From the NCBI GenBank assembly GCA_023300375.1, contig JALZWO010000020.1, positions 1 through 64,000 on the forward strand: DNA of 64,000 nt, given 5' to 3'. Shown here one piece after another: positions 48,665 through 62,527 of this stretch. Position 1 is the first letter of the stretch; each line of letters begins with the position of its first letter. The position numbers were made by a program, and so were the translations under genes. The notes beneath the pieces were generated by a model, which saw nothing but the letters and a program-made list of their open reading frames with translations, ran no database searches and was not told the origin of the DNA. Source of the DNA: Granulosicoccus sp. GTDB taxonomy: Bacteria; Pseudomonadota; Gammaproteobacteria; Granulosicoccales; Granulosicoccaceae.

Positions 48665-49390
48665 TTAGTACATGTGTTGACCACCGTTCACTGAAATGGT
48701 TGAACCGGTGATAAAGCCAGCTTCTTCAGCAACTAGGAAAACGACTGTACGCGCGATGTCATCTGCAGTACCCAAACGTCCTACAGGAATACCCTTGATG
48801 ATCTTCTCAAGTACGTTCTCGGGCACAGCACGCACCATATCGGTATCGACGTAGCCAGGAGCGATAGCATTGACAGTGATGTTCTTGGCAGCACCTTCTT
48901 GGGCAAGAGCTTTGGTGAATCCGTGGATACCAGATTTCGCAGCTGCATAATTCACTTGACCATATTGACCCGCCTGACCGTTGATAGAGCCCACGTTTAC
49001 GATACGGCCAAAAGATGCCTCACGCATGTTGTCAATCACCACTCGGCACATGTTGAAGCACGAACCTAGGTTGGTGTCGACTACCGCTTGCCAAGATGCT
49101 TGGTCCATGCGGTGCAGGGTACCGTCACGCGTGATGCCTGCATTGTTTACGAGGATATTGATAGGCCCCCCTAAATCAGTCTCAACCTTCTTAACACCTG
49201 CTTCGCAAGCCTCAAAATTTGAAACGTCAAATTTGTAGACAGGAATACCACTGCTTTCAGCAAAAGCATTAGCTCGCTCATCGTTGCCGCCGTAGTTCGC
49301 AGCTACCTTGTAACCTTGTGCTTTCAGCGCTAAGGAAATAGCAGCACCAATTCCTCGCGTACCACCTGTAACTATTGCAACCTTAGACAT
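48665..49390 (-). CDS. phaB: Acetoacetyl-CoA reductase
   Basis: A 241-residue short-chain dehydrogenase. NADPH motif VTGGTRGIGAAI, ILVNNAGITRDGTLHRM, GRIVNVGSINGQAGQYGQVN (catalytic Ser), the YAAAKSG active-site Tyr/Lys, and VNAIAPGYVDTDMV. The GQYGQVNY segment and ending GGQHMY are typical of PhaB. It reduces acetoacetyl-CoA to (R)-3-hydroxybutyryl-CoA, the PHB monomer. AAGGAG ribosome-binding site. Lies 59 bp downstream of phaA in the same direction. Confidence 0.93.
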   Translation of the reverse strand: MSKVAIVTGGTRGIGAAISLALKAQGYKVAANYGGNDERANAFAESSGIPVYKFDVSNFEACEAGVKKVETDLGGPINILVNNAGITRDGTLHRMDQASWQAVVDTNLGSCFNMCRVVIDNMREASFGRIVNVGSINGQAGQYGQVNYAAAKSGIHGFTKALAQEGAAKNITVNAIAPGYVDTDMVRAVPENVLEKIIKGIPVGRLGTADDIARTVVFLVAEEAGFITGSTISVNGGQHMY

Positions 49391-49449
49391 GCCCTGTTCT
49401 CCTTTGAATTGTTTCTATTGTTAGATTCTAATGATCTTTCAGCGTAGGT

Positions 49450-50625
49450 TTAGTCGCGCTCAACACACATAGCGATACCCATACCACCACCAATGCAAAG
49501 CGTGGTGAGGCCTTTCTTAGCATCTGTGCGCTTCATTTCATGCAGCAAGGTGATCAAAACGCGAGCACCTGAAGCACCAATAGGATGACCAAGTGCAATA
49601 GCACCGCCATTGACATTAACTTTCGACGAGTCCCAACCCATGTCCTTATTAACAGCGCAAGCTTGTGCAGCAAACGCTTCATTCGCTTCAATTAAATCCA
49701 GATCAGAAACAGCCCAACCAGCTTTTTTCAATGCCGCATGACTGGCAGGAATCGGACCGGAACCCATGATCTCCGGATCAACACCTGCAGTGGCCCAACT
49801 AGCGATACGTGCAAGCACGGGCGCACCACGCTTCTTTGCCTCGTCAGCCGACATCATGACCAAAGCGGCCGCGCCGTCATTCAAACCAGACGCGTTGCCT
49901 GCAGTCACTGAACCTTCTTTTGAAAACGCCGGGCGAAGCTTGGCTAGACCATCGGCAGTAGTGCCAGCCTTGATGTATTCATCAGCATCAACCACAGTGT
50001 CTCCACGACGAGACTTGATAGTCACCGGCGTAATTTCATCGGTAAACTTTCCTGCTTTTTGCGCAGCTTCAGCTTTTTGCTGAGAAGCCGCTGCAAACGC
50101 GTCTTGCTGCTCTCTATCAATTTCCCATTTGGCAGCCACGTTCTCAGCTGTTGTACCCATGTGATAGCCATGAAACGCGTCCCATAAACCATCTTTAATC
50201 ATTGTGTCGATGAACTCAGCGTTACCCATTTTGTAGCCATTTCGCAAGTGTGCACAATGTGCAGACAAGCTCATGCTCTCCTGACCACCAGCCACTACCA
50301 CGCTACTGTCCCCAGCCAATATCGCTTGATAGCCCATCGCCACTGCTCGTAAACCAGAACCACAAACCTGATTAATCGTTAGCGCGGTGCGTGAAGCAGG
50401 GATACCTGCGTGCATGGCTGCTTGCCGTGCTGTATTTTGCCCACATCCTGCGGTGAGCACGTGGCCAAAGATGACCTCACTGACATCATCAGGTGAGATG
50501 GAACCTCGAGCCAGTGCCTCCTTAATTGCTACAGTGCCAAGATCGACTGCAGAAACAGACGATAGAGCGCCATTAAACGAGCCAATGGGCGTACGTGCAG
50601 CGGACGTGATAACAATATCGGTCAT
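49450..50625 (-). CDS. phaA: Acetyl-CoA C-acetyltransferase (beta-ketothiolase)
   Basis: A 391-residue thiolase. Nucleophile Cys88 in [10 protein letters not shown], His in [10 protein letters not shown] and the second catalytic cysteine Cys377 in [10 protein letters not shown]. It condenses two acetyl-CoA to acetoacetyl-CoA, the first PHB step. Directly followed by phaB and preceded 83 bp upstream by the lpd gene, so pyruvate dehydrogenase and PHB precursor synthesis may be co-transcribed. AAGGA ribosome-binding site. Confidence 0.94.
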
Positions 50626-50708
50626 GAGTTGATATTCCTTGTGTTCTTTTAAAAGAATCTAAGAGCCTACTCAAAGCTCTTAGATACGCAAAGCCCGAAA
50701 AATGTAAA

Positions 50709-52754
50709 TCAGTGCTTTTTCTTAGGCGGAATGAGGTCTGTTATCGTGCCCTCAAACATTTCAGCCGCGAAGTTAATGGTTTCAGATAGCGTTGGATGCG
50801 GGTGAATAGTATGTCCCAGATCAGTCGCGTCAGAACCCATTTCGATAGCCAGAGCAGCTTCTGCAATGAGATCGCCTGCGTGTGGCCCAACAATGCCCGC
50901 ACCCAGTAAACGATCAGTGTCCAAATCAAACAATAATTTGGTAACACCCTCAGAACGCCCCATGCTGAGTGAACGACCACTGGCCGCCCATGGAAATACG
51001 CCTTTACCTACTTTAATGCCTTGAGCTTTCGCCTCGTTTTCGGTTAGACCTACCCACGCGACTTCTGGGTCAGTATAGGCAACAGACGGAATTACTCTGG
51101 CATCGAAAAAGCGCTTCATACCAGCACACACTTCGGCCGCCACTTTGCCTTCATGGACGGCTTTATGAGCCAGCATAGGTTGGCCAACAACATCTCCAAT
51201 GGCGAAGATATGCGCAACGTTAGTTCGCTGCTGATTATCCACATGAATAAAACCACGCTCATCAACGTTAACACCACAGTTGGATAAACCAAGATTGGAA
51301 CCATTAGGCCTACGCCCCACTGATACCAGAACTTTATCGAATACATCGCTGTGTTCGCCATCAGGGCCTTCAAACGTGACCTTCATGCCCTCATCAGTGG
51401 CCGAAACAGCCGTGACTTTGGTTTTGAGAAAAATATTTTCGTAGCGACCCTTGATTCGAGTGTGCAAAGGCTTAACGATATCTTTGTCGGCGCCCGGAAT
51501 GATCTGATCCATCAACTCGACTATAGATACTTTCGCCCCTAGAGCTTCATACACAGTAGCCATTTCAAGACCAATAATTCCTCCACCTAGTACCAGCATT
51601 CGCTTTGGAAAATCTTCCAGTTCCAGTGCGCTCGTGGAATCAAGTACTCGTTTATCGTCATGTGGGATGAACGGCAGTGTCACAGGTTCAGAACCCGCAG
51701 CAATAATGCACTGGTCGAAGCTGATTAGCTTCTCACCGTTCTCTGTCATGACTTTGAGTGTGTTTGGTCCAGCGAATTGCCCAGTGCCGTGTACCACTTC
51801 AACCGAGCGTGCTTTGGCCAAACCTTTTAGTCCATCCGTCAGCTTGGATACCACGCCGTCTTTCCAGCTGCGTAATTTGTCCAGATCTATCTCAGGACGA
51901 ACAAAGCTGAAACCATGATCACCCATGTGCTCATATTCAGTGATGACCTTGGCACTATGCAGCAAGGCTTTTGAGGGGATACAACCGACATTCAAACAAA
52001 CCCCGCCTAATGTGGAGTATTTTTCAACCAGCACAGCTTTCAAACCCAGATCTGCTGCTCTGAATGCCGCGGTGTAACCACCAGGACCCGAGCCAAGCAC
52101 CAACACTTCAGCGTGTATATCGCCCGTCTTAGGTGCGCTTGGCCGAGAGCTTGTCGCTGCCACGTCAACACTGGCCGCAGGAGTTGCTGCAGTTGCAGAG
52201 GTGGCCGATGCGGCTGCCGCCTTACCAGTAGACAAAGTCAGAATCAACGACCCCATGGATACGTTGTCACCTTCCTTGACCTTGATATCAACAACAGTAC
52301 CTTCAGCTGGTGAAGGCACTTCTAAGGTCGCTTTATCACTTTCCAATTCAATGAGAGGATCTTCTAGGGACACTTTGTCGCCGGGAGAGACCAATACCGA
52401 CACTACAGGCACATTGTTAAATTCACCGATGTCAGGAACTAGCACTGCTAACTCTTGCGATCCAGACGCGGCGCTTTGAGTCATCGCCGCACCTGAACTA
52501 GCCGGTTTAGCTTGAGGAGCTTCGTTAGCAGAGTCGATAGCAACAATAACGCTGCCTTCACCGACTTCATCGCCTTCTTTCACATCAATGCGTGTAATGG
52601 TTCCTGACACTGGAGAAGGTACTTCCATTGTCGCTTTGTCACTTTCCAGCTCAATCAGCGGATCTTCCGCCTCTACCACATCACCCACAGCCACTAGTAC
52701 ACTGACTACTGGTACTTTGTCGAAGTCACCAATATCGGGAACCTTGATTTCCAT
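50709..52754 (-). CDS. lpdA: Dihydrolipoyl dehydrogenase (PDH E3) with two N-terminal lipoyl domains
   Basis: A 681-residue E3 component. Two tandem lipoyl domains (about 1-74 and 101-175) each carry ELESDKAT, with lipoyl-lysines Lys40 and Lys141, joined by Ala/Pro/Ser linkers. The flavoprotein part starts near 213: FAD motif GSGPGGYTAAFRA, redox-active disulfide Cys253/Cys258 in GGVCLNVGCIPSK, NAD-binding GGGIIGLEMATVY, FAIGDVVGQPMLAHKA and the C-terminal HIHPHPTLSE base (here HTIHPHPTLSE). E3 reoxidises dihydrolipoamide. Many proteobacterial PDH E3 proteins have one lipoyl domain or none, so two are noteworthy. Strong GAGGAGA ribosome-binding site, 16 nt after aceF. Confidence 0.95.
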   Translation of the reverse strand: MEIKVPDIGDFDKVPVVSVLVAVGDVVEAEDPLIELESDKATMEVPSPVSGTITRIDVKEGDEVGEGSVIVAIDSANEAPQAKPASSGAAMTQSAASGSQELAVLVPDIGEFNNVPVVSVLVSPGDKVSLEDPLIELESDKATLEVPSPAEGTVVDIKVKEGDNVSMGSLILTLSTGKAAAASATSATAATPAASVDVAATSSRPSAPKTGDIHAEVLVLGSGPGGYTAAFRAADLGLKAVLVEKYSTLGGVCLNVGCIPSKALLHSAKVITEYEHMGDHGFSFVRPEIDLDKLRSWKDGVVSKLTDGLKGLAKARSVEVVHGTGQFAGPNTLKVMTENGEKLISFDQCIIAAGSEPVTLPFIPHDDKRVLDSTSALELEDFPKRMLVLGGGIIGLEMATVYEALGAKVSIVELMDQIIPGADKDIVKPLHTRIKGRYENIFLKTKVTAVSATDEGMKVTFEGPDGEHSDVFDKVLVSVGRRPNGSNLGLSNCGVNVDERGFIHVDNQQRTNVAHIFAIGDVVGQPMLAHKAVHEGKVAAEVCAGMKRFFDARVIPSVAYTDPEVAWVGLTENEAKAQGIKVGKGVFPWAASGRSLSMGRSEGVTKLLFDLDTDRLLGAGIVGPHAGDLIAEAALAIEMGSDATDLGHTIHPHPTLSETINFAAEMFEGTITDLIPPKKKH

Positions 52755-52770
52755 TTTTGTCTCCTCTCTA

Positions 52771-54060
52771 TTAATGCATTAGCCGGCGAACATCGCCAAG
52801 CAGATGTTTTAAAGTGGAGGCGAAACGCGCAGCCAAAGCACCGTCAATAGCGCGATGATCGTAACTCAATGACAAAGGCTGCATGTTGCGTGGAACAAAC
52901 TGCTCGCCGTCCCATACAGGCTCCATCTTGGAGCGAGTGAGACCAAGAATGGCCACTTCAGGAGCATTAACAATAGGCGTAAAACTGGTACCACCGATAC
53001 CGCCTAGCGAAGAAATAGTGAAGGTCGCACCTTGCATATCTTTAGACTTAAGGTTGCCTTCGCGAGCTTGCAACGACAGATCGGCTAATTCTTTGGAAAT
53101 TTCGACCAAACCTTTTCTGTCCGCATCCTTGATCACTGGAACCATTAAGCCATTCGGTGTATCGGCTGCAAAACCGATGTTGTAGTACGACTTCTTGATG
53201 AGTTTGTCGCCATCAGGATGCAATGAGCTGTTGAACTCCCAGTGCGTTTTCAACGCTGACACACTCGCTTTGATAACAAAAGAGAGCAATGTGACTCGAT
53301 AGCCTTCTGCCTTGGCTTGCGTGTCCATCTCTTTGCGATATTTGTCGAGATCAGTAATGTCAGCAGCTTCGTTATGCGTGACATGGGGAATGTTCAACCA
53401 ACTACGATGCAAGGCTGGCCCTGACAGCTTCTTGATGCGAGACATCTCGACATCCTCGACCACACCAAACTTGGAGAAATCGACGGCTGGAATCGGCGGA
53501 ATACCCATGCCACCACCCGATAGGCCAGCAGCCCCTGCAGGCGCTGAACCAGACTCTTTAAACCAAGCAGTAATATCTTCACGCAAGATACGACCTGCTC
53601 GACCATTACCTTTGATTTGTCCTAGATCAGCACCTAGCTGGCGCGCAAAAGCGCGAACCGATGGAGAGGCATGCGCCTTGGCAAATCCTGCCTCATCAAT
53701 CGCTGCCCCGTTGGAGGTACGCGCTGATAGAGGAGCTACCGCTGGCTGAGCAGGGGCTGTTTCAGCTTTAGCGGGTGCAGGTGCACTCGCGGGAGCACTT
53801 GCAGGTGCAGAAACTTCCGCCACTGCAGAGTCAAGGATAAGTATCAGGCTTCCCTGTGAGACAACATCACCCTCAGCCACCTTGATTTCTTTCACCACAC
53901 CGCCCGAAGGACTGGGCACCTCCAAGGTGGCCTTGTCACTTTCCAGCTCCATGAGTGGATCTTCTTCATTCACCGTATCACCTACCGCCACCAGAATACT
54001 GATGACAGGCACGTCGCTGAAATCGCCAATATCAGGTACCTTTACCTCAAGCGCTGACAT
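52771..54060 (-). CDS. aceF: Pyruvate dehydrogenase E2 (dihydrolipoamide acetyltransferase)
   Basis: A 429-residue E2. One lipoyl domain (about 3-78, lipoyl Lys43 in ELESDKAT), an Ala/Pro linker, a peripheral-subunit-binding domain (ASPSVRAFARQLGADLGQIK, about 131-150), and the catalytic domain ending in SYDHRAIDGALAARF, whose HxxxD motif is the acetyltransferase active site. E. coli AceF has three lipoyl domains; here one is on E2 and two on E3. AGGAGA ribosome-binding site; 68 nt downstream of aceE. Confidence 0.95.
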   Translation of the reverse strand: MSALEVKVPDIGDFSDVPVISILVAVGDTVNEEDPLMELESDKATLEVPSPSGGVVKEIKVAEGDVVSQGSLILILDSAVAEVSAPASAPASAPAPAKAETAPAQPAVAPLSARTSNGAAIDEAGFAKAHASPSVRAFARQLGADLGQIKGNGRAGRILREDITAWFKESGSAPAGAAGLSGGGMGIPPIPAVDFSKFGVVEDVEMSRIKKLSGPALHRSWLNIPHVTHNEAADITDLDKYRKEMDTQAKAEGYRVTLLSFVIKASVSALKTHWEFNSSLHPDGDKLIKKSYYNIGFAADTPNGLMVPVIKDADRKGLVEISKELADLSLQAREGNLKSKDMQGATFTISSLGGIGGTSFTPIVNAPEVAILGLTRSKMEPVWDGEQFVPRNMQPLSLSYDHRAIDGALAARFASTLKHLLGDVRRLMH

Positions 54061-54128
54061 GTTTTTCTCCTGCTTGCTTACTTTGCATTTGTTGTGTTTT
54101 TAGGGTGATTTTCATGACGACACGCTAT

Positions 54129-56786
54129 TCAGGAAATTCTTGGATTGGGTTTACTGCCATCCACGTTAAACAACTTTAACGCTTTTTCAAGATCTGCTTT
54201 ATTCACTGTGCCTTCACGGTAAAGCGATACCATCGCAGCAGCTGCAATATGCTCAGCATCTACCTCAAAGAAGCGACGCAGGTTTACACGGCTATCTGAT
54301 CGCCCGTAACCGTCAGTACCCAACACTGTGAAAGACTGAGGTACAAACTCACGGATCTGCTCCGCATAATTTTTCATATAATCGGTAGCCGCTATAACAG
54401 GGCCCTTAGCATCACCAAGAACTTGCGTCACGTAAGGCACTTTTTGCTCACCCAGCGGATTCAATCGGTTCCAGCGAAGAGCATCCTGTCCGTCTCTGGC
54501 CAGCTCGTTTAACGAGGTAGCAGAGTACACATCCGAACTGACGCCAAAGTGCTCTTCCAACAACCCAGCTGCTTTTATCACTTGCACCAAAATAGTACCT
54601 GAACCCATCAGATTAACGTGCTTGGTTACAGGGCTAGCAGACTTCTCCAGACAATACAAGCCGCGTACAATACCTTCTGCAGAGCCTTCAGGCATACTAG
54701 GATGAAGATAATTTTCATTCATCAGCGTGATGTAGAAAAACACATCTTCCTGATCAACAAACATGCGCTGTAAACCGTTGTGCACGATGACTGCGACTTC
54801 ATGGCTGAATGTAGGGTCGTAGCTAATGCAGTTAGGCACTGTACTGGCCAGAATGTGCGAATGACCATCTTCATGTTGCAGACCTTCACCATTCAGGGTG
54901 GTGCGCCCTGCTGTGCCACCAAGCATGAAGCCGCGTGCTCGTGAATCACCCGCAGCCCAAGCAAGATCACCCACTCGTTGAAAGCCGAACATAGAGTAGT
55001 AGATGAAGAAAGGAATCATGGGTACGCCATGCACGCTGTATGACGTGGCCGCAGCAATCCAATCAGCCATACCACCTGCTTCATTGATGCCTTCTTGCAG
55101 TATTTGCCCGCTGATACTTTCCTTGTAGTACATCATTTGCTCGGAATCTTCAGGCGTGTAATTCTGCCCTTTGGGGTTATAAATTCCCACTGATCGAAAC
55201 AATCCTTCCATACCGAAGGTACGACTTTCGTCTGGAACAATAGGTACAACCTGCTTACCGATTTTCTTGTCTCGAAGCAAGGTTGTTAGCACTCGCACGA
55301 AGGCCATGGTGGTTGAGATCTCACGCTCGCCACTGGACTTCAACTGTGCATCAAACGTGGACAGCTCAGGAATTTCCAGCTTGGGTGTATCGCGCCACTG
55401 ACGCTTTGGGAACTCACCACCCAATGCTGCACGGCATTTGGCCCAGTAGGCTTTCTGCTCATTGTCTAAGGTGACAAAGGGTGCATTTGGCAAGTCTGAG
55501 TCACTGACCGGAATCTTGAATCGATCACGAAAAGCGCGCAACTGATCTTCGGCCATCTTCTTTTGCTGGTGTGTGATGTTCTGACCTTCGCCAGCGTTAC
55601 CCATACCGTAGCCTTTAACCGTTTTAATTAGAAGGCAAGTGGGCTGGCCGACCGTATCACTAGCCTTTTTAAAGGCGCTGTAGACCTTTTCCGGATCGTG
55701 ACCGCCCCGCTTGAGATTCCAGATTTCATCGTCAGTCCAGTCTTTGACCAGTTCAGCGGTCTCTGGGTATTTACCGAAGAAAGTCTCTCGAACATAGGCG
55801 CCATCTCGAGACTTGATCGTTTGATAGTCTCCGTCTACGGTTTCTTCCATGAGTTGACGTAACTTACCGCTAGTGTCTTGCTCGAGAAGTTCGTCCCAGC
55901 CTCTTCCCCAAAGCAGCTTGATAACGTTCCAGCCACTGCCACGAAACTCACCTTCTAACTCTTGAACAATCTTGCCGTTACCTCTTACGGGGCCATCAAG
56001 ACGCTGTAGATTGCAGTTGACGACGAATATGAGATTGTCCAGACCCTCTCTTGCGGCCAAACTGATAGCGCCCAATGATTCCGGCTCATCCATCTCACCG
56101 TCACCGAGAAAACACCACACTTTGCGATCTGCCATATCGATATGACCGCGATTGTGCATGTACTTCATGAAGCGCGCCTGATAGATCGCACACAGAGGAC
56201 CTAGGCCCATAGAAACAGTAGGGAACTGCCAGTAGTCAGGCATTAGCCAAGGGTGTGGATAGGAAGATAAGCCTTTGCCGTCGACTTCTGAGCGGAAGTT
56301 AAGCAACTGCTCTTCGCTAATACGGCCTTCCATGAAACTACGCGCATAAATTCCAGGAATAACGTGGCCCTGAAAGAAGACCAAGTCTCCACCATGCTCG
56401 TCGGACTGCGAACGCCAAAAGTGATTGAAGCCAATATCGTACATGACCGCAGATGAGGCAAAGGAGGCAATATGACCTCCGTACTCTGAGCTGACCTTGT
56501 TGCGCCGCACAACTGTTGCCATCGCATTCCAGCGATTGATAGTGCGAATACGCCATTCCATATTAAGGTCGCCGGGGTAAGGCGCTTGTTGATCTAGTGG
56601 AATAGAATTTAGGTAATAGGTCGTTGATGAAAATGGCAGATTAGCGCCGCCTGAACGAGCTTCTTGCACTGCACTATCCAGTAGAAAATGAGCGCGCTCT
56701 CCCCCATCTTTCTCTACTACATCCGCAATGGCATCTTTCCATTCGGAGGTTTCGACCGGATCAATGTCGTTGACTTCTTCGTTCAT
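54129..56786 (-). CDS. aceE: Pyruvate dehydrogenase E1, homodimeric type
   Basis: An 885-residue ThDP enzyme decarboxylating pyruvate and acetylating the lipoyl groups. Family marks: HGGDLVFFQGHVIPGIYARS, the ThDP motif from GDGEMDEPESLGAIS to VVNCNLQRLDGPVRG, KTVKGYGMG, RTFGMEGLFR and GTDGYGRSDSR. I start at ATG 56786 (MNEEVND); the open frame extends 13 residues further. First gene of aceE-aceF-lpdA-phaA-phaB on the minus strand. No PdhR gene is adjacent. Confidence 0.95.
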   Translation of the reverse strand: MNEEVNDIDPVETSEWKDAIADVVEKDGGERAHFLLDSAVQEARSGGANLPFSSTTYYLNSIPLDQQAPYPGDLNMEWRIRTINRWNAMATVVRRNKVSSEYGGHIASFASSAVMYDIGFNHFWRSQSDEHGGDLVFFQGHVIPGIYARSFMEGRISEEQLLNFRSEVDGKGLSSYPHPWLMPDYWQFPTVSMGLGPLCAIYQARFMKYMHNRGHIDMADRKVWCFLGDGEMDEPESLGAISLAAREGLDNLIFVVNCNLQRLDGPVRGNGKIVQELEGEFRGSGWNVIKLLWGRGWDELLEQDTSGKLRQLMEETVDGDYQTIKSRDGAYVRETFFGKYPETAELVKDWTDDEIWNLKRGGHDPEKVYSAFKKASDTVGQPTCLLIKTVKGYGMGNAGEGQNITHQQKKMAEDQLRAFRDRFKIPVSDSDLPNAPFVTLDNEQKAYWAKCRAALGGEFPKRQWRDTPKLEIPELSTFDAQLKSSGEREISTTMAFVRVLTTLLRDKKIGKQVVPIVPDESRTFGMEGLFRSVGIYNPKGQNYTPEDSEQMMYYKESISGQILQEGINEAGGMADWIAAATSYSVHGVPMIPFFIYYSMFGFQRVGDLAWAAGDSRARGFMLGGTAGRTTLNGEGLQHEDGHSHILASTVPNCISYDPTFSHEVAVIVHNGLQRMFVDQEDVFFYITLMNENYLHPSMPEGSAEGIVRGLYCLEKSASPVTKHVNLMGSGTILVQVIKAAGLLEEHFGVSSDVYSATSLNELARDGQDALRWNRLNPLGEQKVPYVTQVLGDAKGPVIAATDYMKNYAEQIREFVPQSFTVLGTDGYGRSDSRVNLRRFFEVDAEHIAAAAMVSLYREGTVNKADLEKALKLFNVDGSKPNPRIS

Positions 56787-57571
56787 GGTTTTGGCTCTGT
56801 TGGATCTGTAAGAAATGGCGCGCACAGTGGCTGCGAATTGAGTTCGTGTGAGGGCGCATTCATTAAAATGTAACCGCAGGGAGGCTGGGAGGCAGGCAGC
56901 AGACAGAGCTTTGCCGACCGAAAGAGTGAGGATACGAGAGGTTTAACGAGAGACACAGCCTTCAGGCATTCGGCTATCAGGCGTCGAGCGCCAGCTACGC
57001 AAAATCGCACTTGACTGGATAACCGGTTCACCACATGAGGCGGTCGAGGGCACAAGAAACTCGCGCAGGATGCAGATAAAATTCGGAACAAATTCATCGC
57101 TAGGTACAGCGCCGTTGGGCCAGGAGCAAGCTCCATGGATACTACCTTGATCAAGTTCATCGCCACCTAATTCGTTGAAGAGCAATTTGAGGGTACCGCA
57201 GCGGCTCGGTAGGTGGTTAATATATAGGCAGAGGCGACGAATGTCGACACTGTTGCATTCGACAGGTGTTTGGATGGCAATTCACTATGGGTAAAAAAGA
57301 GACCGACAAACTGGATGCGCCGAGGATAGACCGAGGACGTGATCTGAGATTGGGAGGTGATATTCAGAGTGTTTTTAGTTGACGGCTGAAAGCGAGATGT
57401 GTCACATAGAGGTACACCGACCCGTAGCGTGTGGATTAGTTCACGCCTAAATCACTTTTGCTGGTTACGAGGTGTCGACTATCTTTAAAACGTTACTTGC
57501 CAAGCATCGGGCGCCATTGGCGCTGAGATTAAACCCAGCCACCTCTAGAACTCTTCTGAGTCGGCAAGGGG
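56787..57571. other. Intergenic region upstream of aceE
   Basis: 785 bp between aceE and the esterase gene, presumably holding the aceE promoter on the minus strand. Two overlapping minus-strand frames (57185-56943 and 57166-56783) and a 31-codon plus-strand frame at 57287 exist, but none has family resemblance, a good ribosome-binding site or a convincing start. I see no RNA gene. Confidence 0.45.
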
Positions 57572-58636
57572 CTAAGCAGCTCGTGATTGCTCCCCGGACG
57601 AATCATCTTCAGGCGACTCAGATTGACTAGCGGAGGATTGCTTAAAGAACATCCAGATCAGCTCACTCACATTTGGCGCATCAGGCACACTGTAGTCTCC
57701 CGGCAACCCTCCAGGCCAGCCGTGAGGTACATTGCTCAATAGGAAGTGCCCTACTTGCAATGCGCCTTCTGCACTGTATTGCTCAAAACGCCAAGATGGC
57801 GTGGGCATAGAGTCGCCGAATAAAGAGTCAGGTTCTTCCTCGCAGCCCGACGCCACTAGCCAGCTATCGCGTAGGTTGGAGCCTAATTTAGGACCAACGG
57901 TTTTGTCAGCCTTAGACTGTATGACGAGCAAAGGCGGTGCTGGGGCCACAAGCTCCCTCTTTAGTAACCTAACCAAAGTGCCAACGGTCTTTCTTACCAC
58001 AGGGAGTTGCCGGACGAATTTAACCGACCTCGAACTCTCTCCATAGGGTACGCCAGCGATGCTCGCACCACTGGTCCAGAAGTCGCTGTAGGACGCAAGC
58101 GAAACCACACTCATAGCCGCACCCGATGACAAGCCGCAAATGTGCCTTCTTGTCTCGTCTACCGCATACAATTCGCTGACATCTTCGGCAATACGGTGTA
58201 AATCTGACACTTCTCCTCGCCCACGTTGACGTTGACGGGTCAACCACCAACCCCAACAGTTACTGTTTCTCATTCCAGAGTACGTGGTGACGAAAGGATA
58301 AACCACGATGGCGCCTTCACGATCGGCAATGGCATCGAACCCAGATATGTCTTGGATCGAGAGATGGTCTTGTTTGCAGCCGTGCAACAGCATGATCAGC
58401 GGGTATTGACGATTCTCTGAATAGCCCTTAGGCAGATACACCCTGTACTGCCTCAGCCTCGACACGCGACCGTCCTGCTTGAGAATTTCGTGATCCACAA
58501 CCTGCCCGCCTGTCGCCTTCACGTGTTGGCGAACAAGCACAGCTTCTAAGTCGTTCTGTCTAATCATCTGATGGGCCAGCTTCCATACAACCAGGCGAGT
58601 TCGTCGAGTATATTGCAACGCAAAATATACTTCCAT
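57572..58636 (-). CDS. PHB-depolymerase-family esterase
   Basis: A 354-residue alpha/beta hydrolase of the LpqC / poly(3-hydroxybutyrate) depolymerase type. YRVYLPKGYSENRQYPLIML leads to the oxyanion motif LLHGCKQD, and the nucleophile elbow is CGLSSGAAMS (GxSxG). Asp (QSKADKTVG) and His (NVPHGWPGG) complete a triad. There is no signal peptide, so an intracellular role (PHB mobilisation) is more likely than extracellular polymer digestion. A TTGC-AAC-GCAA inverted repeat (58613-58623) sits within the first codons of this frame, so the true start could be ATG 58564 (MIRQNDL). Placed between the PDH and phasin blocks. Confidence 0.78.
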   Translation of the reverse strand: MEVYFALQYTRRTRLVVWKLAHQMIRQNDLEAVLVRQHVKATGGQVVDHEILKQDGRVSRLRQYRVYLPKGYSENRQYPLIMLLHGCKQDHLSIQDISGFDAIADREGAIVVYPFVTTYSGMRNSNCWGWWLTRQRQRGRGEVSDLHRIAEDVSELYAVDETRRHICGLSSGAAMSVVSLASYSDFWTSGASIAGVPYGESSRSVKFVRQLPVVRKTVGTLVRLLKRELVAPAPPLLVIQSKADKTVGPKLGSNLRDSWLVASGCEEEPDSLFGDSMPTPSWRFEQYSAEGALQVGHFLLSNVPHGWPGGLPGDYSVPDAPNVSELIWMFFKQSSASQSESPEDDSSGEQSRAA

Positions 58637-59210
58637 TTAAATGTTGTGAACAAGTATGAATGCTCCATAAACTAATACCGAATAAGTTCAACAACTTGCA
58701 CAACAATAGTAAATTTAAGCTGCATTGGCATAATTAGACAGACAATGCACTGTGCAATTCGTTGTCTACGAATTATCAGCCATTCAATGTAACGTAAAAC
58801 AAAATGTAGCGGTCAAGATACAGAGCGACAACAAAACTGACGATGCCGTTAATTTCCTCAATCTAGAAGCACGTACCTCGGAAGTAGAATCCTTCACGCC
58901 CACGCCCGCAGTGGATGAACCGCTGCACTTGGTAAGACATAGCGGCAAAATCAAGCGACAACTTAGAGACGCGTCCCTTAATGACGGTTATGTCTCGGAT
59001 AAATAAAGAACGCGTGAATATAGGAGGCAAAAGCAGAATGAACTTGAATTGGCCCACTATTATTGCACCGCACTGCAATATTTTTCAGAAAATAACAGCA
59101 TATTTTTTTTAAAACCAAATTAATTAAAAATAAATTCAAATTATTTATCTATATAAATCAATATTTTAAATAAATACCATTCAACTTCCACCATTTTTTG
59201 CCGTTGTATA
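58637..59210. other. Divergent control region between esterase and phasin genes
   Basis: Carries TGCA-type repeats: a perfect palindrome TGCAC-T-GTGCA (58746-58756) and TTGCACCGCACTGCAA (59063-59078), similar to the elements over the phasin promoter. From 59095 to 59180 it is extremely AT-rich, a plausible UP-element or bent-DNA stretch. An 84-codon frame (58752-59006, GTG start on the palindrome) has no family resemblance and I do not call it a gene. Confidence 0.55.
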
Positions 59211-59250
59211 TTGCATTGCAACAAAAGCATCTCTATAATGCACTGCAACA
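59211..59250 (+). promoter_or_regulatory. phaP promoter with two PhaR-type operator repeats
   Basis: TTGCAT (59211-59216), a 17-bp spacer and TATAAT (59234-59239) form a near-consensus promoter. TTGCATTGCAACA (59211-59223) covers the -35 and ATGCACTGCAACA (59238-59250) covers the end of the -10 and the start site; the two are direct repeats 27 bp apart. In Ralstonia and other PHB producers PhaR represses phasin genes by binding two such sites and is released by growing PHB granules. phaR itself lies 950 bp downstream. Confidence 0.75.
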
Positions 59251-59296: not shown

Positions 59297-59650
59297 ATGC
59301 AAAACTTTACAGACAACATGAACGAGCAATTCAAAACTTTCTCTGACCTACAAGCAAAGAGCCTCGAGCCAATGCGTATCTTCGCAAGCTTGACTACTGA
59401 TGCTGCTGAGCAATTCGCTCGTCACAGCCACGCGGTAGCGGGCGATGTACTTGATTTCGCTGCTAAATCAGCAAACCTGCCTCTAGCTGGCGACAACATA
59501 CAAGATGTTGCTTCTGCTCAAGTAGCTGAAGTATCTACATTCACAGAGTTGATGAACACACGCGCCAGTGAGTATTCTGAATTGGCTCAATCTTTCGCTA
59601 CTCAAGCCAAAGAAGCAGCTGAATCAGCAACTTCTTCTCTCAACAAGTAG
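59297..59650 (+). CDS. phaP: Phasin (PHB granule-associated protein)
   Basis: A 117-residue, almost wholly helical amphipathic protein of the phasin_2 type: DLQAKSLEPMRIFASLTTDA, EQFARHSHAVAGDVLDFAAK and a heptad-rich end. Phasins coat PHB granules and set their number and size. ATG 59297 is preceded by TTGGAGC; the longer frame from 59198 reads through the operators and is not coding. First gene after the repressible promoter. Confidence 0.88.
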   Translation: MQNFTDNMNEQFKTFSDLQAKSLEPMRIFASLTTDAAEQFARHSHAVAGDVLDFAAKSANLPLAGDNIQDVASAQVAEVSTFTELMNTRASEYSELAQSFATQAKEAAESATSSLNK

Positions 59651-59689: not shown

Positions 59690-60079
59690 ATGAATACAGA
59701 ATTTAACGAACAGTTTGCAGAGATGCAAAAAAAGACCCTTGAAGGCCTAGAGCCAATGCAGAACATCGGTAACGTCGCTGCTCAGGCATTTGAGCGGATC
59801 GCTCGTAAAAACTACGACCTGATGGGTGATTTAGTTGACTATGCGGTCACGCAGGCGAAAATGCCTGAAGGCGAGCTGGACGCTCAAAAGGTCTATGACC
59901 AACGTGTCGCTGAGACAAAAGCATTCGCCGACAAAGTGAACGCTCGCGCTGCCGAGTATGTAGAGTTGGCTGGTGAGTTAGGTGAGATGGTTTCTGCCAA
60001 CGGTGCTGCTGCTCCGGCGAAAGCTGCACCTGCTGCGAAGAAAACGGCTGCCAAGAAGAAAGCCGCGAAAGCCAAGTAG
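59690..60079 (+). CDS. Phasin with lysine/alanine-rich histone-like tail
   Basis: A 129-residue second phasin, similar to the first (KTLEGLEPMQNIGNVAAQAF, NYDLMGDLVDYAVTQAKMPE, AETKAFADKVNARAAEYVEL). The last 25 residues are Ala/Lys-rich, with AAKKTAAKKKAAKAK, as in histone-H1-like PhaF of pseudomonads, which ties granules to the nucleoid. That role is inferred. Good CGGAGC site; 39 nt after the first phasin, with a terminator following. Confidence 0.87.
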   Translation: MNTEFNEQFAEMQKKTLEGLEPMQNIGNVAAQAFERIARKNYDLMGDLVDYAVTQAKMPEGELDAQKVYDQRVAETKAFADKVNARAAEYVELAGELGEMVSANGAAAPAKAAPAAKKTAAKKKAAKAK

Positions 60080-60113
60080 TTAGTAGTCATTGCAGTAGTG
60101 CAATAAGTCTAAT

Positions 60114-60149
60114 CGCCTGCCCCAGCCTAATGGTTTGGGTGGGCGTTTT
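60114..60149 (+). terminator. Terminator after the phasin pair
   Basis: CGCCTGCCC (60114-60122) pairs with GGGTGGGCG (60137-60145), with two G-T wobbles, then TTTT. Separates phasin transcripts from phaR-phaC. Confidence 0.75.
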
Positions 60150-60202
60150 CCTATGGTTGTTGACGAATGCGTGGTAGTCCATCATTGTGTAGCGAGTCGT
60201 CG

Positions 60203-60682
60203 ATGCACAACACGAGCGTATTTGTGAGCCAAAATAGATTAATTAAAAAGTACGCGAACCGGCGTCTTTATGACACAGTTGCCAGTAAACACGTAACCCT
60301 TAGCGATGTTCGCAAGCTGGTTGTCGAAGGCTTCGAGATTCAAATTATCGAAGATACGTCAGGCGACGATATTACAAGACCGCTTCTTCTACAAATCATT
60401 GCTGAACAAGAAGGCAATGGCGGCACTCCTATCCTAACCGAGGTTCTGCTGTCTCAGTTGATCCGGTTTTACGGCAACCCGATGCAAAGTATGATGTCAG
60501 AGTACCTGCAAAAAAGCGTCAGTACATTTGTGCAACAACAAAGCACCATTCAGGAGCAAATGCAACACATGTTGTCCCATACACCGGCTGACACCATGAG
60601 CGATCTGATGCAGCAAAACTTGAAAACCTGGGACACTCTATTTAAAGGTAGTACCAGTAGAAATAATGACGACAAGAAATAG
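60203..60682 (+). CDS. phaR: Polyhydroxyalkanoate synthesis repressor
   Basis: A 159-residue PhaR. The DNA-binding N-terminus LIKKYANRRLYDTVASKHVT and LSDVRKLVVEGFEIQIIEDT is diagnostic, and the following ITRPLLLQIIAEQEGNGGTP is the PHB accumulation regulatory domain. PhaR binds TGCA-rich operators and PHB itself, de-repressing phasin synthesis as polymer accumulates. The frame extends to GTG 60167; I use ATG 60203, closer to the family start. phaC follows after 57 nt. Confidence 0.93.
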   Translation: MHNTSVFVSQNRLIKKYANRRLYDTVASKHVTLSDVRKLVVEGFEIQIIEDTSGDDITRPLLLQIIAEQEGNGGTPILTEVLLSQLIRFYGNPMQSMMSEYLQKSVSTFVQQQSTIQEQMQHMLSHTPADTMSDLMQQNLKTWDTLFKGSTSRNNDDKK

Positions 60683-60739: not shown

Positions 60740-62527
60740 ATGGCTGTGAGTGATCAAGAAAAGATCGTAAAAGAACACATGGAAGACATGACCAAAACGT
60801 TTACGGACGTTTGGCAGAAAAATGCAGCCATGATGACTGAACTGTTTAATCAGTCTCATCAGATTCTTACTAAAGACATCGATCCGATGAATATTGGCCC
60901 CGCGTTCAGCAAAGCCTCAAAATATTTCTCGAACGATCCGATGAAAATGATGGAGGCGAATTACGAGCTATGGAAAGAGCACGTTGCACTCATGCAGGAG
61001 GCCAGCATGGATATGATGAACAAGAGCCCCTTACCAGAAGCCTCGCAACCCTACGATCGCCGCTTTAAGCATGAAGATTGGGCCAACAACCCCATGTTTG
61101 ATTACATTAAGAAATCTTACTTGATCACAAGTAAGTGGATGGTGAACACCATGACATCTGTAGACGGCTTGAGCGAAAGCGATAAAAACAAGATTGTCTT
61201 TTACTCACAGCTATTGGCAGATGCGTTTTCTCCTTCAAATTTCTTTATGACTAACCCTGAAGCTATTCGGACCATGGTTGAAACCAATGGGGAGAGCGTG
61301 GTTAAAGGCATGGAAAACCTACAACGCGATCTTGACCCACAGACAAGTCAACTTAGCATCATGATGACGGACCCCGATGCTTTTGAGCTTGGCAAAAACA
61401 TCGCCACTACACCCGGTAAAATCGTCTATCAGAACGCTCTACTCCAGCTCATACAATACGAGCCGACCACAGCAAAGGTACATGAGCGTCCACTCGTTAT
61501 TGCGCCGCCATGGATAAACAAGTACTACATCCTAGACCTACAACCTAAAAATTCTTTCATAGCTTGGGCGGTTGCGCAGGGCTACACTGTTTTTGTAATC
61601 TCGTGGGTAAATCCGGATTCAGAACTCGGTGGCAAGACGTTTGAAGACTACATGCAAGAGGGCATACTCGAAGTGCTTGACGCTGTTGAACAAGCTACCG
61701 GTGTTAAAGACGTATCCATGATTGGATACTGCATTGGTGGAACCTTGCTCAGTGCTACGCTTGCCTACATGGCTGAAATAGGCGATAAACGTATAAAAGC
61801 TGCAACTTTCTTTGCCTCACAAGCTGATTTTTCCGAGGCAGGCGATTTAAAATTATTCGCCGATGAGGTTCAAGTAGATAACCTTGAAAGCGCAATGGAG
61901 GAGAAAGGCTACTTAGAGGGTAAGTCAATGGCCAGCACATTCAACATGCTGCGTTCCAATGATCTGATCTGGTCCTTCTATGTCGATAATTACCTGCTGG
62001 GCAAGGATCCATTAAAATTCGACCTACTTTACTGGAACGCTGATTCCACACGTATGCCGCGCGAAACCCATTTGTTTTACTTACGCGAAATGTACATCAA
62101 TAACAATCTGTCCAAGCCTGGCGGCATTTCCCTCAAAGGCATTCCTATTGATTTGTCAAAGATCACCATTCCAATCTATCTGCAAGCTGCTAAAGAAGAC
62201 CACATAGCCCCTTACCCATCTGTGTTCAAATCCACGGGATTTTATAGCGGCCCTGTTCGTTTCATGTTGGCAGGTTCTGGTCACATTGCCGGCGTCATCA
62301 ACCATCCTGCAGCTGAAAAATATAACCACTGGATAAACGATGATCAACCTAAAGACCTAGATCAGTGGTTGGAAGGTGCAGTAGAGCATAAAGGCTCTTG
62401 GTGGGTTGACTGGGACAAATGGTTGTCGAAGCACTCTGGCGAAAAAGTGGCCAAGCGCATACCAGGCGCAGGCAAACTGAAAGTGCTAGAAGACGCACCG
62501 GGAAGTTACGTGTCCGTCAAAAGCTGA
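60740..62527 (+). CDS. phaC: Class I polyhydroxyalkanoate synthase
   Basis: A 595-residue PHA synthase. The lipase-like box is GYCIGG with nucleophile Cys331; Asp487 (KEDHIAPYPS) and His515 (GSGHIAGVINHPA) complete the triad with the same Asp-His spacing as Ralstonia PhaC (Cys319/Asp480/His508). PPWINKYYILDLQPKNSFI and WNADSTRMPRETHLFYLREM are class I hallmarks. It polymerises (R)-3-hydroxybutyryl-CoA on granules. No PhaE partner gene, consistent with class I. Confidence 0.95.
   Translation: MAVSDQEKIVKEHMEDMTKTFTDVWQKNAAMMTELFNQSHQILTKDIDPMNIGPAFSKASKYFSNDPMKMMEANYELWKEHVALMQEASMDMMNKSPLPEASQPYDRRFKHEDWANNPMFDYIKKSYLITSKWMVNTMTSVDGLSESDKNKIVFYSQLLADAFSPSNFFMTNPEAIRTMVETNGESVVKGMENLQRDLDPQTSQLSIMMTDPDAFELGKNIATTPGKIVYQNALLQLIQYEPTTAKVHERPLVIAPPWINKYYILDLQPKNSFIAWAVAQGYTVFVISWVNPDSELGGKTFEDYMQEGILEVLDAVEQATGVKDVSMIGYCIGGTLLSATLAYMAEIGDKRIKAATFFASQADFSEAGDLKLFADEVQVDNLESAMEEKGYLEGKSMASTFNMLRSNDLIWSFYVDNYLLGKDPLKFDLLYWNADSTRMPRETHLFYLREMYINNNLSKPGGISLKGIPIDLSKITIPIYLQAAKEDHIAPYPSVFKSTGFYSGPVRFMLAGSGHIAGVINHPAAEKYNHWINDDQPKDLDQWLEGAVEHKGSWWVDWDKWLSKHSGEKVAKRIPGAGKLKVLEDAPGSYVSVKS

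Follow-up and report, generated by a model that had tools for sequence, protein, structure and literature searches.

Paired candidate PhaR operators on a phasin promoter in Granulosicoccus

Described PhaR systems and the Granulosicoccus gene cluster

In characterized systems, DNA-bound PhaR keeps RNA polymerase off the promoter until PHB titrates the repressor from its sites (PMC12849132, PMC12542648). A TGCRNYGCA core has been deduced for the Ralstonia protein (PMC12849132), and it agrees with the Sinorhizobium motif (PMC12542648). By sequence, the layout described here is close to those of Ralstonia phaP1 and Sinorhizobium meliloti phaP2. The phaP1 gene of Ralstonia eutropha (Cupriavidus necator) shares with the Granulosicoccus locus a sigma70-type promoter, the same core, and a pair of palindromes with a one-base center; in Ralstonia these are the experimentally supported BS1, on the -35 side, and BS2, at the start site (PMC12849132). 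BS1, however, is placed immediately ahead of the -35 (PMC12849132), whereas in Granulosicoccus the distal candidate operator, O1, sits directly on it. The third site differs as well: the prediction for Ralstonia puts it within the ORF (PMC12849132), and in Granulosicoccus it is about 145 bp upstream. The two organisms also belong to different classes, the Betaproteobacteria and the Gammaproteobacteria, respectively. We found no footprinted gammaproteobacterial PhaR case in the literature searched, though one may exist elsewhere.

In S. meliloti, the phaP1 and phaP2 promoters each carry two experimentally supported PhaR/AniA palindromes, with separations of 18 and 28 bp going by the coordinates given there, which flank the -35 and stand further upstream of the start than do O1 and the proximal operator, O2, in Granulosicoccus (PMC12542648). 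A further likeness is the presence of one site at the depolymerase gene and none at the synthesis genes (PMC12542648). The PhaR regulon of S. meliloti is broad (PMC12542648), whereas scans of the Granulosicoccus genome detected no such regulon. Herbaspirillum seropedicae PhbF, which represses phaP1, has a similar core, TG[N]TGC[N]3GCAA (PMC3206438).

The Granulosicoccus locus lies in a stretch of 64,000 nucleotides, hereafter the window, in which profile matches define a plus-strand cluster of two phasin genes, phaR, and a class I phaC, in that order (Table 1). The phaR gene is present in a single copy in the genome, about 1 kb downstream of the operator pair, and its start is likely the GTG at about 60221, the longest frame beginning at 60167. 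We found no solved structures resembling this PhaR by sequence. Among named relatives, Granulosicoccus metagenome genomes come closest. On the other strand, the nearest relative suggests that the PHB-depolymerase family esterase gene starts at 58567 and not at 58636. A profile search of the genome found no intracellular depolymerase PhaZ (TIGR01849); the esterase, which by eye has no obvious signal peptide, may be the working depolymerase. Also in the window, phaB and phaA come immediately after apparent pyruvate dehydrogenase genes (E1, E2, and lipoyl-E3; 48665-56825, minus strand), on the same strand as these and adjoining the phasin-phaR-phaC cluster, an arrangement that reads as a pyruvate-to-PHB gene array.

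Between phasin 2 and phaR, a strong RNA hairpin (60084-60156, plus strand; -28.5 kcal/mol, z -3.8) suggests that most phasin transcripts stop short of phaR, in which case the amounts of phasin and of PhaR could be controlled independently. One element of the hairpin region, TTGCAGTAGTGCAA, is a TTGCA palindrome whose arms stand 4 bases apart, outside the PhaR core pattern.

Table 1. Genes, predicted promoter, and candidate PhaR sites of the Granulosicoccus phasin locus (window coordinates)
Feature	Position	Strand	Description
PHB-depolymerase family esterase	57572..58567	-	Type 1 scl-PHA depolymerase catalytic domain
Candidate operator TGCAACGCA	58614..58622		Upstream of PHB-depolymerase-type esterase gene
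O3, candidate overlapping double site TGCACCGCACTGCA	59064..59077		About 145 bp upstream of O1
Phasin promoter (predicted)	59211..59239	+	TTGCAT (-35, 3/6), 17-bp spacer, TATAAT (-10, 6/6)
O1, candidate distal operator TGCATTGCA	59212..59220		Covers -35; inside palindrome TTGCATTGCAA, 59211-59221
O2, candidate proximal operator TGCACTGCA	59239..59247		Covers predicted start (about 59246), overlaps -10
Phasin 1	59297..59650	+	Phasin_2, 21.4 bits, below 24.9 cut-off
Phasin 2	59690..60079	+	Phasin_2, 24.6 bits, just under 24.9 cut-off
PhaR	60221..60682	+	TIGR01848 equivalog, 134 bits vs cut-off 109
Class I PHA synthase PhaC	60740..62527	+	TIGR01838, above cut-off

Candidate operator pair and its distinction from chance

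Of the two repeats, TTGCATTGCAACA at 59211-59223 covers the -35 and ATGCACTGCAACA at 59238-59250 the start region; the interval between them is 27 bp, and both are exactly where the original prediction had placed them. That prediction called them direct repeats, and two matching copies do exist; the term nevertheless understates their symmetry because both elements are palindromes with a one-base center (TTGCA-T-TGCAA and TGCA-C-TGCA), better described as palindromic dimer sites. The left arm of O1 is the -35 hexamer TTGCAT (59211-59216), and O2 shares its first T with the end of the -10 TATAAT (59234-59239), such that the predicted operators overlap the -35, the -10, and the start of the phasin gene promoter, the start itself being a sequence prediction. 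The TTGCAT-17-TATAAT promoter is present as foreseen, but the label "near-perfect" overstated its quality: while the -10 is perfect, the -35 agrees with TTGACA at only three of six positions, and a generic consensus promoter scan did not list it.

Both candidate operators fit the TGCRNYGCA core exactly. Against the 17-bp Ralstonia consensus YTKNTGCRNYGCANMAR, for which 3 mismatches are tolerated (PMC12849132), O1 and O2 show 2 mismatches, counted by eye, and do not match it exactly; a genome scan with this consensus gave one match, outside the window, and congeners with PhaR showed no enrichment of it.

In intergenic DNA rich in AT, short palindromes might resemble operators by chance, and the single motifs, taken one at a time, allow for this. 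Within the window, the 13-mer with up to 2 mismatches was seen 15 times against 13.1 expected from shuffles, so that one such motif means little, and exact TTGCANTGCAA occurs at 12 places in the genome, mostly inside coding frames, two of them being copies of one contig-end overlap. The site cluster, on the other hand, stands far above shuffles. The 729-bp intergenic region holds 5 YGCRNYGCR matches against 0.28 in shuffles, of which 0 of 20,000 reached 5; a TGCANTGCA pair no more than 60 bp apart arose in 1.5% of whole-window shuffles; and the spaced 27-bp pair occurs once in the 4.58-Mb genome. Together with the conservation of fixed spacing in nine genomes described below, which refutes it, this leaves chance likeness with a negligible probability. 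A control pattern of reversed letters differs in composition and was disregarded for single motifs.

No wider PhaR regulon is readable from single-motif genome scans with TTGCANTGCAA, TGCANTGCA, and the 17-bp consensus, and a site sought upstream of phaA or phaA-phaB was not found. Another TTGCATTGCAACA outside long reading frames lies at L008:1501-1511 and L009:1501-1511, where the ends of two contigs of the same genome overlap, next to a gene that by eye resembles a YceI-type protein.

Conservation in the genus and the class

Among 27 genomes sampled from the genus, 11 carry phaR, the same 11 carry phaC, and 16 lack both. The 27-bp pair is found at the phasin promoter in nine of the 11, the genome under study included, and at none of the phasin-type promoters of the other 16, which yielded only two pairs, of different sequence and neither with a TATA spacer. 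In an ungapped alignment of the nine genomes, the operators, TATA(A/C)T, and an ACAAGA after O2 are invariant or nearly so, while flanking and spacer DNA diverges; the promoter spacer is 17 bp in all nine, and the operator centers change (A/T, C/T) with symmetry retained. Judging from these sequences, selection acts on both the two-site layout and the 27 bp between the sites. The two most distant PhaR congeners have consensus sites near a phasin gene without the 27-bp pair. A CCG-like trinucleotide at 59202-59204, just upstream of O1, is likewise invariant (9/9).

We also ran a slightly stricter form of the pair pattern blind over 369 Gammaproteobacteria genomes. It returned two matches only, the studied window and a genome from another family (G355), where the pair (L120:1501-1537) precedes the gene of a Phasin_2 protein (47 bits, above cut-off) by about 50 bp. 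The layout there is TTGCAG-17-TATGCT, with the -10 overlapping the second palindrome as in Granulosicoccus. In this case the DNA pattern alone led independently to a phasin promoter. No PhaR gene was found within about 9 kb of the G355 phasin gene, whose promoter adjoins a DJ-1/PfpI gene.

The consensus match, the exact conservation in PhaR congeners, and the absence from phasin-type promoters of congeners without PhaR and PhaC together argue that O1 and O2 are, as originally proposed, PhaR-type operators paralleling those of Ralstonia phaP1. With a probability of roughly 90%, we consider them to be operators through which the PhaR encoded downstream represses the phasin genes until PHB forms. 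Two results count against this reading: the lack of the 27-bp pair in the two most distant PhaR congeners, and the lack of a PhaR gene within about 9 kb of the G355 phasin gene. The basis is sequence, spacing, conservation, and co-occurrence with phaR; binding, repression, and release by PHB are inferred from the characterized PhaR systems. Another regulator that recognizes TGCANTGCA could instead own the repeats, with PhaR acting elsewhere, given that the motif is short and simple and has 111 exact occurrences in the genome. We judge this very improbable: the core is the one published for PhaR, within the genus the pair goes along with phaR and phaC, and the blind scan retrieved a phasin promoter.

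Further candidate sites and a proposed mechanism

Beyond the pair, the original prediction had listed related elements at 58613, 58746, and 59063. The first and last fit the consensus and are conserved; 58746 (TGCACTGTGCA) was rejected as a PhaR site because its half-site spacing differs. The site at 58614 counts as upstream of the esterase gene if that gene starts at 58567, and its position is the same in the nearest relative. In six of six genomes, the 220 bp upstream of the esterase gene contain a consensus match (P about 3e-7 from shuffles, with the genomes treated as independent), which supports the earlier suggestion that the depolymerase gene belongs to the same regulon. PhbF also binds its own promoter (PMC3206438), whereas the 150 bp preceding phaR hold no YGCRNYGCR in any of the 11 phaR-bearing genomes, that of the Granulosicoccus under study included; in S. 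meliloti, too, autoregulation is weak.

O3 consists of two overlapping consensus fits, TGCACCGCA at 59064 and CGCACTGCA at 59069. Seven of the nine genomes have a consensus match about 139-184 bp upstream of O1, against 0.36 expected; the corresponding P of about 1e-9 assumes independent genomes, which they are not. PhaR on O1 and O2 might bind as a lac-like looped complex with 59064-59077, full repression needing all three sites. This model draws on the treatment of Herbaspirillum PhbF as a tetramer (PMC3206438) and on a three-site scheme of the lac type put forward for Ralstonia phaP1, as well as on the conservation of the upstream match. We hold it to be doubtful, since the distance varies from 139 to 184 bp, two genomes lack an exact site, and O3 could serve another transcript. 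Looping would extend the explanation by PhaR repression and does not contradict it.

On the repression reading, PhaR dimers would, without PHB, sit on O1, over the -35, and on O2, where the -10 ends and transcription is predicted to start, excluding RNA polymerase and keeping both phasin genes off. Once PHB granules form, PhaR would bind the polymer and leave the DNA, and phasin would be made in proportion to granule surface; surplus phasin would then displace PhaR, and repression would resume. A similar single operator may act on the divergent depolymerase-type gene. With operator centers 27 bp apart, about 2.6 helical turns, the pair of dimers would be on different faces of the helix. The geometry of the sites on the promoter fits steric exclusion better than activation. 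A dual role of PhaR is documented (PMC12849132), and the protein might activate here as at Ralstonia phaP3; yet the phaP3 sites are well upstream of the promoter, and sites on the -35 and start are a repressor arrangement, so that activation seems very improbable.

Overall, the Granulosicoccus circuit is of the known PhaR-phasin kind, ordinary but well supported, and no new system. More tentatively, and with the odds against it, it may be a gammaproteobacterial form of the switch that combines a rigid 27-bp pair sharing a -10 base, looping to the conserved O3, and the same repressor on the divergent depolymerase-type gene; if this looping, shared-repressor form were true, granule coating and breakdown would start together. 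For practical use, the 27-bp pair is specific enough for finding phasin promoters by DNA search alone, and its promoter could serve as a PHB-responsive part. For the biology of these bacteria, two candidate repressor sites on the switch of the gene for phasin, the coat of storage-plastic granules, would extend the PhaR-phasin switch, known chiefly from work on Alpha- and Betaproteobacteria, to an uncultured gammaproteobacterial group of the marine Granulosicoccus type.
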